From the NCBI GenBank assembly GCA_002838815.1, contig LQGW01000022.1:1-51266 (forward strand): a DNA stretch of 51,266 nucleotides, written 5' to 3'. The stretch's first letter is position 1. Every line of letters starts with the position of its first letter. A program made the position numbers and the translations under genes. This DNA is from Clostridiaceae bacterium JG1575. GTDB lineage: Bacteria; Bacillota; Clostridia; Clostridiales; Clostridiaceae. Of this stretch, positions 15,492 through 37,474 are shown in pieces. Below the pieces are notes generated by a model. That model saw only the letters and a program-made list of their open reading frames with translations, made no database searches and had not been told where the DNA came from.

Positions 15492-16788
15492 TTAAGTCCT
15501 TAAAATGGTGTAAATTGAATAAGCCAAAAAACAGACCTCTGGTATCATTAAGTTGCACAAATAACTACCTGGAGGATTTGTTGGATGGCTCAACTTAATA
15601 GTACACTGGACACCCATCTTTTGAGAGACCTTTTCTCTCTTGAAGGCAGGGATCAAGCCTACGCAAAGCTCATGGAATCCATCTTGACCCAGGTCCTGGA
15701 ACACCAAGCCATGGAGCCAACCGGTGCCGGCCTCTACGAGCGCAGCGAAAAGCGGCAGGCCTACCGCAACGGCTACCGGGGTCGCACCTTAAAAACACGG
15801 GTCGGCACCCTGACTTTGACCGTCCCACGCCTGCGGGACAGTCACTTCAGCACCGAGCTCTTCGCGCGCTATCAGCGCAATGAGCTCTGGTGCTCGCCAT
15901 GATGGAGATGGTGGTCAATGGCGTATCCACCCGCAAGGTCTCGGCCATCACTGAAGAATTGTGTGGCACCGCCTTCTCCAAGTCCACTGGATCCTCGCTC
16001 TGCGAATAGCTCGATCCCGTGGTCACGGCGTTCCGTGAGCGTTTGTTGGAGAAAATTTACCCCTACCTGATCGTCGATGCCATCTACACCAAAGTACGGG
16101 AGGCAGGCGCCGTGCGCTCCAAAGGGCTGCTTGTGGCCCTCGGGGTGAACGGGGACGGCTATGGCGAGATCCTTGGCTTCAGGGCGGCGGACACGGAGTT
16201 CGAAGGATCCTGGGGCGATTTCTTCTCGTCCCTCAAGGCCCTCGTTCGCGCCATCGGGAAACACTTCCAGGGAGCCGCCTGGCAAAGATGCCAGACCCAC
16301 TTCTCCCGCAACCTGCTCGATGTGTGCCCGAAAAAGCATTAGCCCACGATCAAGGCGCACTGGAAGTCCCTGTATGAGTCCGTAGACCACGAGGCTGCTC
16401 GTGCTGTTAAGGAACGCATCCTCACTGAATACGGGCAGAACGCCCCAAAAGTCTGTGCTCTGCTAGAGGAGGCTTTTGACGATGTGACACAGGTTCTGCG
16501 CCTGCCCATGGCCATCCGTAGGAGGCTTGCGCACCTCCAACGCGATCGAACGGGTCAACGAGGAAATCCGGCGAAGAGAGCGGGTGATCCGGATCTTTCC
16601 GAACGAGGCCTCGCTACACCGCCTGATCGGGGCGCTCCTAATAGACATCCACGAAGAGTGGCAGGCCGGGCGCCGGTACCTGTCCCTTCCGCCGGAGGCC
16701 TGTGCCCAACCTGTTCCTATTGCTGGCTCTACCAACATAAGTGCTGCTTAAGATACCAGTGTCGATTTTACACACAAATATGGACTTG
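15492..16788 (+). mobile_element. IS256-family insertion sequence, inactive copy 1
   Basis: About 1.3 kb bounded by related imperfect terminal inverted repeats. The left end reads TTAAGTCC then TGTAAATTGA (from 15492). The right end, read on the minus strand, gives CAAGTCC then TGTAAAATCGA (to 16788). It encloses a single broken transposase frame. No obvious target duplication was found. The same left end is repeated in inverted orientation at 21576-21583 in copy 2. Confidence 0.8.
15585..16751 (+). pseudogene. IS256-family transposase, multiply disrupted
   Basis: The reading frames together spell an IS256-type (Mutator-like, DDE) transposase of about 390 residues. The N-terminus starts MAQLNSTLDTHLL, a middle segment contains PYLIVDAIYTKVRE (first catalytic Asp) and the end contains RTSNAIERVNEEIRRRERVI (region of the catalytic Glu). 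Lesions are a frameshift near 15890, TAG at 16007-16009, an apparent in-frame loss near 16231 removing the usual SDAHxGL block (second catalytic Asp), TAG at 16340-16342 and a frameshift near 16525. GGAGG precedes the ATG at 15585. It cannot make an active enzyme. Confidence 0.9.
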
Positions 16789-17070
16789 ACGCGTCATTTC
16801 GACGCGATCGTCGCATTTTTATGGGTTTACCGCTTGTTAGCGCACTTCAGAGGGCAGTTTCCAAACGGAACCCCCTCAGAGGCTAAAACGATTATCAAAC
16901 TCATAATGGAATTTCTCTCGGTCAAAGGGCCTGGCGTGCGGGTGAGGACGAATGGCCGTGGAAAACGAACAAGAAAACGCCGGAAAATAAAAAAATCCCC
17001 GTGGAAAACGAAGCCTAATTTAAAAACTTCGTTCCAAGAGGATCAAATAATTGACAAATTGTCATCTTTC
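16789..17070. other. Intergenic stretch with a 14-bp direct repeat
   Basis: No gene is seen. The 14-bp sequence CCGTGGAAAACGAA occurs twice (16956-16969 and 16999-17012) in the same orientation, 43 nt apart. Function unknown. Confidence 0.45.
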
Positions 17071-20963: not shown

Positions 20964-21485
20964 TCAAGGGAAGGCGTGGGCCGGCAGGAAGTGGTAAATA
21001 AGAGCCTTAGATTCCTCTCCCGGAACAGGTTGGGCACAGGCCTCCGGCGGAAGGGACAGGTACCGGCGCCCGGCCTGCCACTCTTCGTGGATGTCCATTA
21101 GGAGCGCCCCGATCAGGCGGTGTAGCGAGGCCTCGTTCGGGAAGATCCGGATCACCCGCTCTCTTCGCCGGATTTTCTCGTTGATCCGCTCGATCGCGTT
21201 GGAGGTGCGCAAGCCTCCTACGGATGGCCATGGGCAGGCCCGGGACGGTCACTTCAGGGGGCCGACCCGTGTTTTTTAGGTGCGACCCCGGTAGCCGTTG
21301 CGGTAGGCCTGCCGCTTTTCGCTGCACTCACAGAGGCCGGCACCGGTTGGCTCCATGGCTTGGTGTTTCAGGACCTGGTTCAAGATGGATTCCATGAGCT
21401 TTGCGTAGGCTTGATCCCTGCCTTCAAAAGAGAAAAGGTCTTTCAAAAGATGGGTGTCCAGTGTACTATTAAGTTGAGCCATCAA
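20964..21485 (-). pseudogene. IS256 transposase remnant (N- and C-terminal parts joined)
   Basis: The N-terminal 68 codons (MAQLNSTLDTHLLKDLF and on) read to a stop just after RNGYRGRT. The C-terminal ~80 codons, beginning MRTSNAIERINEKIRRRE, follow in another frame. The junction lies at GCAGGC 21234-21239, i.e. GCCTGC on the coding strand. That hexamer occurs in copy 1 at both edges of the missing segment (15829-15834 and 16500-16505). All catalytic Asp residues are gone. The C-terminal tail after CAQPVP differs from copy 1. Confidence 0.88.
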
Positions 21486-34720: not shown

Positions 34721-34833
34721 GACGTCCACATTTTTTTGAATGGTTATTGATTTCACAATTAGGGTGGGGTTTTGTGCTTTTTGCCTCGAAAATCGTGGTA
34801 GAATGGGTGGGTAAACTAAAGAGGAGTGATAGT

Positions 34834-35028
34834 ATGTTGGCTTTTTTCTCACGGTTGGGATTGCAGGAAGTTCTGGTCATTCTCATCGTCGCGTTGCTGG
34901 TATTCGGTCCTAAAAAGTTGCCCGAGATCGGCAAATCCTTGGGCCATTCCTTCAATGAATTCAAACGGTCCATGAATGGAGAACCCGCTAAGACCCCAGA
35001 GAACCCTTCGTCGGGAAATGAAGAATAA
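34834..35028 (+). CDS. tatA: Twin-arginine translocase subunit TatA
   Basis: 64 residues. One N-terminal transmembrane helix (about 10-24) is followed by FGPKKLPEIGKSLGHSFNEF, the hinge plus amphipathic helix of TatA/E proteins, and a short charged tail. It forms the pore of the Tat pathway for folded proteins. ATG at 34834 follows AGAGGAG. It overlaps tatC by 11 nt; no tatB is seen, so this is the minimal TatA-TatC form common in Bacillota. The two genes converging on it from the right carry Tat signals. Confidence 0.93.
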   Translation: MLAFFSRLGLQEVLVILIVALLVFGPKKLPEIGKSLGHSFNEFKRSMNGEPAKTPENPSSGNEE

Positions 35029-35767
35029 CCCTTCGGCGGATCCCAAGCAAGACACCCTGGTGGGGCATTTGAGCGAACTGCGCCGCCAGCTGATGTGGTC
35101 TTTATTGGTTTTTGTGGCGGTCACGGTGGCCGCCTTTTTCTTTGCCGAGGTCCTGGTTTTGGATATGGTGAGTAAAGCGCCCAACACCCGCTTCGTCTAT
35201 TTGTCGCCGGCGGAATTGTTCACCACCTATATGCGAATTGCTATGGTGGCGGGGCTCTTGGTCTCCTTGCCGTTCTTTTTAAACCGCATCTGGGCATTCA
35301 TTCGTCCGGGGCTTTACCCCAAGGAAATCCGCACCCTGCGCTGGGCGGTGCTTTTGGGCGTGGCCCTCTTTGCGGCGGGCTTATGCTTTGCCTATCTTAT
35401 CGTGTTGCCCATGAGCTTGGAGTTTTTCGCTCGCTTTCAAACTCCGGCCATCCAATCGGCGGTGGGTTTTTCCAATTACTTCGATTACGTGACGAAGATG
35501 GTGTTTGCCTTTGCCTTGGTGTTTGAATTGCCCATCCTCGTGGTGGTCTTGGTTCGCTTGGGCGTTGTCACCACCGACTTTTTGAAGAAGAATCGAAAAT
35601 ATGTGCTCTTGGTGGTGGTGGTGCTTTCCGCCATTTTAACGCCACCGGACGTACTCTCTCAGATCATGCTCTCGGTGCCAATGATGCTGTTGTTTGAACT
35701 GGGGATCGTCTTGGGCCGACTGGGCGAAAAGAAGGCTCAAAGGGTCCTTGAAGCCTCGAAGATTTGA
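35018..35767 (+). CDS. tatC: Twin-arginine translocase subunit TatC
   Basis: 249 residues, a six-helix membrane protein that recognises the twin-arginine signal. Typical motifs are LVGHLSELRRQL (N-terminal conserved block), FIRPGLYPKEIR and the TPPDVLSQIMLSVPM block near the last helices. ATG at 35018 lies inside the end of tatA (11-nt overlap). A 24-bp bidirectional terminator separates it from the convergent selenoprotein operon. Confidence 0.95.
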   Translation: MKNNPSADPKQDTLVGHLSELRRQLMWSLLVFVAVTVAAFFFAEVLVLDMVSKAPNTRFVYLSPAELFTTYMRIAMVAGLLVSLPFFLNRIWAFIRPGLYPKEIRTLRWAVLLGVALFAAGLCFAYLIVLPMSLEFFARFQTPAIQSAVGFSNYFDYVTKMVFAFALVFELPILVVVLVRLGVVTTDFLKKNRKYVLLVVVVLSAILTPPDVLSQIMLSVPMMLLFELGIVLGRLGEKKAQRVLEASKI

Positions 35768-35928
35768 TAAGACCTGCTTTAGGGAGGGCATATTCCTTTC
35801 CTTTAAGGGAGCCCATAGGGGCCTAAAAGCAAGAGGGGGGGCATCGGATGCGTTCTCCCCCATCCCCCTTGAAAGACCAGGTCGTCTCAAGGGATCGTTG
35901 GCGCTCAAGGGGAGCCTTCGATTTATGG

Positions 35929-35992
35929 AAAACCAGCAAGACCCCGCGGCCCATCCTTTTGGGGACGGGCCGCGGGGTCTTGCTGGTTTTTT
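35929..35992. terminator. Bidirectional terminator between tatC and the selenoprotein operon
   Basis: A 24-bp perfect stem with arms 35929-35952 and 35967-35990 and a 14-nt loop; T-runs on the plus side, and A-runs (T on the minus strand) on the left. It serves both convergent operons. Confidence 0.9.
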
Positions 35993-36025
35993 GGGTTTCG
36001 TTTTGAACTCGAAGGATTCCGGTTC

Positions 36026-36736
36026 TTAAGAAACTTTAAAGTGTCGATTGAGCATCTCCACCATATAGCGGGTGACGTCGGCGGCGTTGCCGGCGCAGCG
36101 GGCTTTTCGTTTGGGGTCCGTGTAGGGCACCTTCATTTTTTCCATGAACTTGCCCACAGAATCCGAGCAAAGATAGGAATCGGCCACCGTGGTCTCCAAG
36201 GCGCCTTGGTATTCGGGCTGGTATTTGGGGAAGGGGAATTTCTTATACCACTCGTAGAGCTCTTTGACCAAGGCCGGAGCATCTTTGGGGTCCACCACCG
36301 AGCCAATGCAAAAAGCCGCAACGCCCAGGGAGCCGCAGAGGGTGGCTAGGCCAAGTCCTCCGGCTTGGGGCTTAAACATTTTTGTCGGGATTTGGTTGTA
36401 GGGGAAGCCATGCGCTTCCGCCAGCGAGCCGAAGAACCCTTCGGCAACACCCATCCCTCAGCCGCCTTTTTCTTTATAGGCTTTGTAGGCTCGCTCTTGG
36501 GCTTTCACCGGGTCCAGACCGGGATAGGGCATGGGGGAGGGCATGGCGTCCGCTTGAGGCTTTTTGAATTCGTAGGTGAGTTTCTGTTTGGGTTTGGGCT
36601 GTGCAAACACCAGCTGAGGTCGATAGAGGCCTTGCGTAGCCGATACGGCTGCGGCGCCGGCGACTGCCTTCGCGCTGGTTTTTAAAAAGGAGCGGCGGGA
36701 GATCTCCTGCTGCTTTTGTTCATCGATTGGATTCAT
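36026..36736 (-). CDS. Tat-exported C-GCAxxG-C-C-type selenoprotein (soluble copy)
   Basis: 236 residues when the in-frame TGA at 36458-36460 is read as selenocysteine (residue 93). N-terminus: SRRSFLK twin-arginine motif (13-19), a hydrophobic stretch and a likely cut after VFA (residue 45). The Sec lies in KGG-U-GMGVAEGFFG. Conserved Cys follow in TLCGSLGVAAFCIG, YLCSDSVGKFM and RCAG. Twelve nt after the UGA a 7-bp GCCGAAG/CTTCGGC hairpin with a GGUU loop fits a bacterial SECIS. AGGAGG precedes the ATG, overlapping the upstream paralogue's stop region, so both form an operon. The family is redox-related, with possible cofactor binding; biochemical role unknown. Confidence 0.88.
36428..36445 (-). 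promoter_or_regulatory. Bacterial SECIS hairpin, gene 36026-36736
   Basis: On the minus strand the UGA (36458-36460) is followed by a 12-nt spacer and GCCGAAG-GGTT-CTTCGGC, a perfect 7-bp stem with G at the first two loop positions. The UGA-to-loop distance is 19 nt. These values fall within the published bacterial SECIS consensus (small stem, G in the first two loop bases, loop about 16-37 nt after the UGA). Confidence 0.75.
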
Positions 36737-36745
36737 TTGGACCTC

Positions 36746-37474
36746 CTATACGCCATGATATTTATTGAGGATTTCAACCATCTTGCGCGTGGTGTCGGCA
36801 GCGGTGCCGGCGCAGCGGGCTTTACGGATGGGATCCTTATACCCTACGTTCATTTCGTGCATAAATTTGCCCACGGAATCCGAGCAAAGATAAGACTCAG
36901 CCACGGTTTTTTTGAGCTGACCTTCATATTCGGGTTGGTATTCTGGGAAGGAGAAGTCCTTATACCAATTGAATAATTCTGCAATCAGTTTTTTGGCGTC
37001 ATCCGGTGGGACAACGCTTCCGATGCATACAGCAGCCACGCCTAAGGAGCCGCAAAGGGTGGCCAGGCCGTATCCGCCGGCATAGCTTTTAAAGGTTGCA
37101 GGATTGATTTGGCGGAAGGGATACCCTGCTTTTTCCCCCAGTTCGCCGAAGAACCCTTCGGCCACACCGACGCCTCAGCCCCCTTTTTGCTGATAGGCGG
37201 CATAGGCGCGTTCCGCACACGTGGTGGGATCGAGCTTTTGGTAGGGATAAGGATAGGGAGCGGCTGCGGTCCCTTTTTTCTCGATGAACTTGTAGCTGAG
37301 TTCTTGTTTGGGCGCATAGGTCGTTTCATACTTCTTTTCACACCCCGTGAAAAGGGAAAGACCCGATGTGGCGAGAGCAACCCCCGCGGCGCCTACGCCG
37401 GCCCGCTTTAAAAAATCCCTTCTGGAGGGAATAAAGCCATCGGCCTGCGGCGCTTCTTGCTCATGGAATTTCAT
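36746..37474 (-). CDS. Tat-exported C-GCAxxG-C-C-type selenoprotein (lipoprotein copy)
   Basis: 242 residues when TGA at 37175-37177 is read as selenocysteine (residue 100). Tat signal SRRDFLK (17-23) ends in a lipobox LFTGC, so Cys45 would be lipid-modified and the protein tethered outside the membrane. The Sec motif KGG-U-GVGVAEGFFG and the later Cys motifs TLCGSLGVAAVCIG, YLCSDSVGKFM and RCAG match the downstream paralogue. The same SECIS-like hairpin follows 12 nt after the UGA. AAAGGAA precedes the ATG. First gene of the two-gene operon; TatA-TatC are encoded convergently about 1.7 kb away. Confidence 0.88.
37145..37162 (-). promoter_or_regulatory. Bacterial SECIS hairpin, gene 36746-37474
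   Basis: Identical to the hairpin in the paralogue: a 12-nt spacer after UGA (37175-37177), then GCCGAAG-GGTT-CTTCGGC. The spacers differ in sequence while stem and loop are unchanged. Confidence 0.75.

Follow-up and report, generated by a model that had tools for sequence, protein, structure and literature searches.

Tandem genes for predicted Tat-exported selenoproteins with a split-Soret cytochrome c-like core in a Clostridiaceae bacterium

Two adjacent genes of Clostridiaceae bacterium JG1575 encode real, functional-looking exported selenoproteins, in which a selenocysteine (Sec) takes the place of the first of four core cysteines of a fold predicted to be that of split-Soret cytochrome c. 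As far as the literature was searched, the tie of the Sec proteins of this family to split-Soret cytochrome c, the exchange of haem for flavin on an exported core, and the linked tatAC genes are new; the presence of Sec in the C-GCAxxG-C-C family and the existence of Tat-exported selenoproteins are already known.

Two paralogous genes with a UGA at the same place

The window, as the whole stretch of 51,266 nucleotides analyzed here is called, carries both genes on its minus strand. Gene A (37474..36746) encodes a protein of 242 aa starting with the Tat signal SRRDFLK, and gene B (36736..36026) a protein of 236 aa starting with SRRSFLK and holding no lipobox; the two share one core, similar to split-Soret cytochrome c and to family PF09719, without haem motifs. 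The in-frame UGA is codon 100 in gene A (TGA at 37177..37175, minus strand) and codon 93 in gene B (TGA at 36460..36458, minus strand). These codons align in a pairwise comparison, which agrees with the tandem paralogous minus-strand genes with a UGA at the same place described in an earlier note on this DNA. The same note had claimed that the frame stays open and conserved for about 140 codons past the UGA, and this also holds: the 142 codons after the UGA show 68% amino-acid identity between the two genes, against 42% over the 89 aligned codons before it, and the third codon position takes most of the changes beyond the UGA (0.27/0.20/0.49 by position).

A gap of 9 bases lies between the genes, and an AGGAGG ahead of gene B overlaps the stop codon of gene A, suggesting that both are probably part of one transcript. 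Between gene B and the convergent tatC lies a 20-bp inverted repeat (35936..35983, no strand assigned), probably a terminator common to the gene A/B unit and to tatA-tatC. Rfam matches at 35916-36003 were rejected, as all are far under their gathering scores and sit on this palindrome. Elsewhere in the window, at 15585-16789 and 21007-21327, ORF pieces resemble by eye a broken transposase.

Selenocysteine at the UGA codons

Homologues were gathered from a search of the order (matches in 5 of 225 genomes) and from a sample of the phylum (51 of 398), and the 105 domain hits from both were merged into 91 rows. One of these rows is truncated by a contig end, and one Cys gene appears twice (L052_2 and L084_1, from overlapping loci), so that the rows correspond to 90 genes. 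Only two residues occur in the column of the UGA: Sec, in 25 rows that come from 20 genomes, and Cys, in the remaining 66 (65 genes). The possibility raised in the earlier note, that homologues would have a sense codon and the window genes further disruptions, is therefore not what the alignment contains.

Downstream of each UGA there is a SECIS-type hairpin, at 37145..37162 in gene A and 36428..36445 in gene B (both minus strand), with the same stem of 7 bp (GCCGAAG/CUUCGGC), the same loop (GGUU), and the same UGA-to-loop distance of 19 nt. When the hairpin is defined as at least 5 bp with a G at loop positions 1 and 2, within a set distance range and over 63 scanned bases, it is present in 23/25 UGA rows and 12/66 Cys rows (12/65 by gene, as the duplicated Cys row fails the rule), a difference (Fisher 8e-11) accompanied by one in folding z-scores (p 4e-10, with shuffles that preserved base composition only), where the p-values overstate independence because the rows are related. 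The contrast persists when 51 bases are scanned instead of 63 (23/25 vs 10/66) and sharpens when the position and stability of the hairpin are judged more strictly (21/25 vs 1/66). Sixteen of the 25 UGA rows share one register and could be used for a covariation test, which found double changes at three of the seven pairs and no shuffle out of 500 matching the observed score. Of the nine UGA rows outside that register, L095_1 and L121_1 fail the hairpin rule, and the remaining seven satisfy it with different hairpins.

The search for sel genes, set beforehand as a refutation test, found the complete set in the genome (G000; 2.38 Mb, 64 contigs, 97% complete), all on contig C34: selA with 612 bits, selB above its cut-off, selC as a tRNA-Sec with anticodon tca at 67.5 bits, and selD with 365 bits and an in-frame TGA of its own at GGU. 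The genes selD, selB, selA, and selC lie inside 13 kb, at about 123.3-136.1 kb of this contig (L123).

Recoding of UGA throughout the genome was rejected, since TGA acts as a normal stop in the rest of the window, as in the neighbouring tatC. The genes might also have decayed, in which case the UGA would be a genuine stop and the frames behind it either relics or products of internal starts, for which an ATG in gene B and a GTG in gene A, both after the UGA, could serve. However, the codon-position bias persists past the UGA, the codon is common to 23 rows from 19 other genomes, the hairpin tracks it among homologues, the sel set is complete, and a fragment starting after the UGA would be without the first core residue and the export signal, all of which makes decay extremely improbable. 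Pseudogenes and internal restarts were accordingly rejected on the homologue columns, the hairpin tracking, and the codon-position bias. Gene A and gene B are not pseudogenes, and selenocysteine in both of them is very well supported. The Sec gene structure, the hairpin, the insertion machinery, and the Tat signals are all read from the sequence.

Family membership and predicted fold

The assignment to the C-GCAxxG-C-C family made in the earlier note stands, with both proteins above the PF09719 cut-off (33.2 and 32.3 bits vs 27) and showing its pattern of four conserved Cys, of which the first can give way to Sec (U/C 25/66 in the homologue rows, with C in 91/91 at the other three columns). 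PF09719 and TIGR01909, whose name includes '(seleno)protein', describe a family that already lists Sec. The window proteins differ from it in being predicted to be exported by Tat, in lying beside tatAC, and in missing the TIGR01909 cut-off of 47.4 bits, with 11.8 bits for gene A and no match at E <= 1 for gene B. C-GCAxxG-C-C proteins are tabulated among selenoproteins in two surveys, whose entries list them as putative redox proteins with no role given (PMC9312934; PMC13188914); the tables of the second, a selenoproteome review from 2026, have a 'form 1' and a 'form 2' (WP_012158890.1) (PMC13188914).

The closest solved structure by sequence is 1h21, the split-Soret cytochrome c of Desulfovibrio desulfuricans ATCC 27774, with E values of 2.5e-20 and 3.9e-20, and in the sequence alignment the Sec of the window proteins stands opposite the Cys of GFGCGFG in 1h21. 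With Cys entered in place of Sec, AlphaFold2 gave a model of gene B (pLDDT 87, pTM 0.75) that has 1h21 as its sole Foldseek match at E <= 0.001 (E 8.9e-10), and a VIA comparison with 1h21 gave Z 25.0 and rmsd 2.5 over 178 residues, the next chain having Z 5.4. The gene A and gene B proteins are thus predicted to have the core fold of split-Soret cytochrome c, with core Cys that align, but they lack CxxCH motifs and the two-haem tail, and Sec replaces the first core Cys. Matches to NF047622, the split-Soret family as drawn by NCBI, begin at the twin-arginine region and reach 109.7 and 99.0 bits, far from the cut-off of 400, and membership in that haem-bearing family was therefore rejected. The 1h21 fold, taken together with this missed cut-off and the absence of CxxCH, points to the same core in proteins that are not cytochromes. 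The 40 members of alignment A3 all match both NF047622 and PF09719 at E <= 0.01; eight of them also hold a Cu_amine_oxidN1 domain (PF07833), placed by eye between the Tat signal and the core.

Conserved residues and Sec/Cys exchange

The other core cysteines, which in gene B are C134, C190, and C214, are invariant in 91/91 rows. Of the four further conserved cysteines claimed in the earlier note these three hold, whereas C143 of gene B does not, being Cys in 7/91 rows. Sec is confined to the first of the four core positions in 25/25 UGA rows, which suggests that this position does something that the other three do not. In a tree built by a quick method, Sec and Cys were exchanged six times at fewest, with at least four exchanges forced by strongly supported branches, and gene A and gene B fall in a haem-free set of 12 rows (8 Sec, 4 Cys; support 96).

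The spread of the family is patchy: the two other genomes of the genus are without a match at E <= 1e-12. A scan of genome contigs with gene B alone as query found no relative. The genome does encode a third PF09719 protein (L001, G000:C55:40706-41065), of 209 aa, without in-frame UGA and, by eye, without a Tat signal; it is under the search threshold and outside the 91 rows. Two haem-free Cys homologues (L038 and L041) have no visible signal peptide and are apparently cytosolic. The earlier note had considered the paired set unusual, but tandem UGA copies are not unique to this genome, as another one (G331) has two neighbouring copies of the two-haem type. In that pair (L095, G331:C11:32594-34623) the best hairpins are at other distances than in gene A and gene B.

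Haem tails and flavin domains

The number of CxxCH motifs is zero in gene A and gene B; across the 91 rows it is two in 68, one in 4, and zero in 19. Three loci (L056, L061, and L128) have an FMN_bind gene near the core gene, with a lipobox judged by eye, and in two others (L130:4902-5915 and L131:4998-5924) FMN_bind is fused C-terminally to the core, where the cytochromes have their haem tail. These fused copies, which carry Cys instead of Sec, come from Clostridia metagenome bins, one of them from buffalo caecum. The fusion suggests a flavin as electron donor, and the pairing of the core with either two haems or FMN_bind among relatives suggests that it probably serves as an exported module for electron transfer whose donors can be exchanged. 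FMN_bind domains are also known as extracytoplasmic electron carriers in flavinylated extracytosolic systems, where they are ApbE substrates (eLife 2021, PMC8238504); the main text of that study makes no mention of GCAxxG, split-Soret, selenoprotein, selenocysteine, TatC, or YeeE.

FMN_bind is matched seven times in the genome and ApbE once, and among the FMN_bind matches there are, by eye, one small lipoprotein-like gene and one gene in an Rnf-like cluster. Within the 20.5 kb searched around the gene pair there are no relatives of FMN_bind, YeeE, or LysR, so that both the flavin partner and the substrate proposed below are borrowed from relatives.

Export and the neighbouring tat genes

The twin-arginine start noted earlier for each gene was confirmed by TIGR01409, whose cut-off of 16.7 bits both signals exceed (25.1 and 24.5 bits). 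Judged by eye, gene A has an LFTGC lipobox after the Tat signal, near relatives having a Cys there after Gly or Ala, and gene B has a possible signal-peptidase site (VFA/Q); on these motifs gene A would be a putative lipoprotein and gene B a putative soluble protein. Convergent with the pair lie tatA (34747..35028, plus strand; PF02416 6.3e-18) and tatC (34976..35767, plus strand; PF00902 1.3e-60). The TatA_B_E domain begins at residue 37 of the annotated tatA, whose true start is probably further in than the annotated TTG.

This tatC is the single TatC match in the genome, which is 97% complete. Among homologues, TatC occurs at 13/22 loci in one neighbourhood set and at 15/27 distinct loci, each time no more than about 3 kb from the core gene, where the distinct loci are 29 minus L125 and L129 (repeats of L057 and L060, taken as the same contigs from their lengths), differ in region length, and include two (L073 and L124) from one genome. 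It is near 12/16 haem-free exported copies (absent from L056, L126, L127, and L130, with L126 having TatA) and near 3/10 two-haem copies, and there is none at L069, where the copy has no signal. The absence of haem motifs, the Sec/Cys exchange, and the nearness of tatAC are, like the predicted fold, all drawn from sequence comparison.

A twin-arginine-like motif is found in 85/91 rows (strict RR in 76), in 25/25 UGA rows (strict RR in 17/25), and in 71/72 rows with haem motifs, the sole miss being a duplicate row truncated at the locus end. Proteins with c-type haems mostly use the Sec export route, and the persistence of a Tat signal in members that bear haems suggests that a cofactor enters the core ahead of export. 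Across the genome, a TIGR01409 search found only gene A and gene B above the cut-off. A further match of 15.5 bits, in a 30-residue frame inside a long ORF on the same strand, is probably due to chance. The model is insensitive, finding 9/40 family members at E <= 0.01 and 19/40 at E <= 5, so other Tat substrates may well exist, and the idea that the Tat system is kept for the two selenoproteins is a suggestion.

The earlier note had presented a paired set of Tat-exported selenoproteins as unusual. A Tat-exported selenoprotein is not new in itself, as shown by the twin-arginine-like motifs of all UGA rows and by FdnG and FdoG of Escherichia coli, which are Tat-exported selenoproteins. The likeness lies in the insertion of Sec before folding and Tat export; FdnG and FdoG are different proteins, with a molybdopterin cofactor. 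The interpretation given in the earlier note is otherwise supported, and the split-Soret relative, the adjacent tatA and tatC, and the haem-flavin exchange were absent from it.

Sulfur-related neighbours

YeeE-family (Sulf_transp) genes are present at 9/27 distinct loci, with a LysR regulator at all nine. At six loci (L058, L059, L061, L065, L070, and L128) the YeeE/YedE-family transporter is split into two half genes. In the cassette of Anaerosolibacter carboniphilus DSM 103526 (L128:3861-10595), a LysR gene and the gene of the Sec protein are accompanied by TatA, TatC, and FMN_bind, followed by a HMA/DsbD_2/cupredoxin gene, TusA, a YeeE half, TusA, and a second YeeE half. At L056 a gene for a rhodanese protein lies on the opposite strand, some 3 kb away from the core gene. 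No relatives of YeeE, LysR, or FMN_bind were found near the UGA copy of Sedimentibacter saalensis (L126), which has TatA. In the window genome itself, the YeeE family has three match rows, which fall at two sites outside the window.

In other bacteria, YeeE and the TusA-type YeeD (TsuA and TsuB) take up and break down thiosulfate (PLoS Biol 2024, PMC11073785). The resemblance lies in the YeeE-type genes near relatives, with TusA at L128; unlike in that system, there is no YeeE around the gene pair, and the tie to selenoproteins comes from neighbourhood alone. From this thiosulfate role and the YeeE and TusA genes near relatives, an extracellular reaction that reduces a sulfur or selenium compound can be guessed as the task.

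Proposed mechanism and alternatives

In the proposed mechanism, the two selenoproteins would fold in the cytosol and then leave through the neighbouring TatA/TatC, the gene A protein being tethered as a lipoprotein at the outer face of the membrane and the gene B protein being released. The invariant Sec, Cys, Cys, and Cys would probably hold an iron-sulfur centre assembled in the cytosol, with Sec as the special position, redox-active or facing the substrate. The electron source, in place of the two c-type haems, would be an FMN_bind lipoprotein with covalently attached flavin, which Rnf might feed, and the likely task would be to reduce some sulfur or selenium compound outside the cytoplasm. 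The picture as a whole, of Tat-exported and haem-free selenoproteins with a split-Soret core, an iron-sulfur centre, a flavin supply, and sulfur or selenium reduction, is held with moderate confidence.

We infer the cluster, the flavin partner in this genome, and the substrate. A centre with three Cys and one Sec is suggested by the four invariant positions, by the Tat route, and by split-Soret cytochrome c itself, in which a [2Fe-2S]-type centre was reportedly detected by spectroscopy (Abreu, 2003); the crystal structure 1h21 is said to be without it. The narrower proposal, in which Sec, in the pair and in the other UGA-containing members (25 rows), is a natural ligand of an exported [2Fe-2S]-type cluster (three Cys plus Sec) wired to flavin, or in other members to c-type haems, with Tat kept in this genome mainly for the pair, is tentative and, on balance, rather doubtful. 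To our knowledge, no natural Sec-ligated iron-sulfur cluster is known, and none is described in the titles and abstract openings of the best-ranked literature matches. Counting against the mechanism, mutations in split-Soret genes of Desulfovibrio alaskensis caused no loss of fitness under the energetic conditions tested (PMC4215793).

The main alternative dispenses with the metal: Sec would be a catalytic free selenol, in a disulfide, sulfane-sulfur, or peroxide reductase cycling with one of the core Cys. The restriction of Sec to the first position in 25/25 UGA rows is what would be expected of an attacking residue, its location at a helix start in the gene B model (H93-109) would fit as well, and the TusA, YeeE, DsbD_2, and rhodanese genes near some relatives suit thiol or persulfide chemistry. 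However, a redox pair of two residues would not need four positions invariant as a set, and the twin-arginine kept by haem-bearing members implies a cofactor inserted ahead of export, so that a metal-free selenol, while a possibility to be taken seriously, is probably not the correct reading. The YeeE relatives at 9/27 distinct loci, and the YeeE-family match rows that the genome holds outside the window, could instead indicate that the proteins are carriers or scavengers of selenium or sulfur feeding YeeE-type uptake and not electron-transfer enzymes. This seems improbable given the fusion of the core to FMN_bind domains and two-haem tails, which speaks for a redox partner, and given the lack of a YeeE relative in the 20.5 kb around the pair.

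Implications

No paper treating split-Soret and selenoprotein together was found in the open-licence PMC literature, and among the best-ranked matches on exported selenoproteins most were animal or medical studies. The interest of the gene pair lies less in the pairing than in where Sec sits: placing it on a solved cytochrome fold leads to the testable claim that it occupies one of four suspected Fe-S-binding residues, and tests are practical because Anaerosolibacter carboniphilus DSM 103526, a named strain, carries the cassette. The family can be seen as one exported core that goes with haems in certain bacteria and with flavin elsewhere, with Sec and Cys swapping repeatedly at a single position. 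If the cluster proposal is true, this substitution of Sec for Cys at a fixed ligand, swapped at least four times, would be a natural experiment on the effect of selenium on the cluster.
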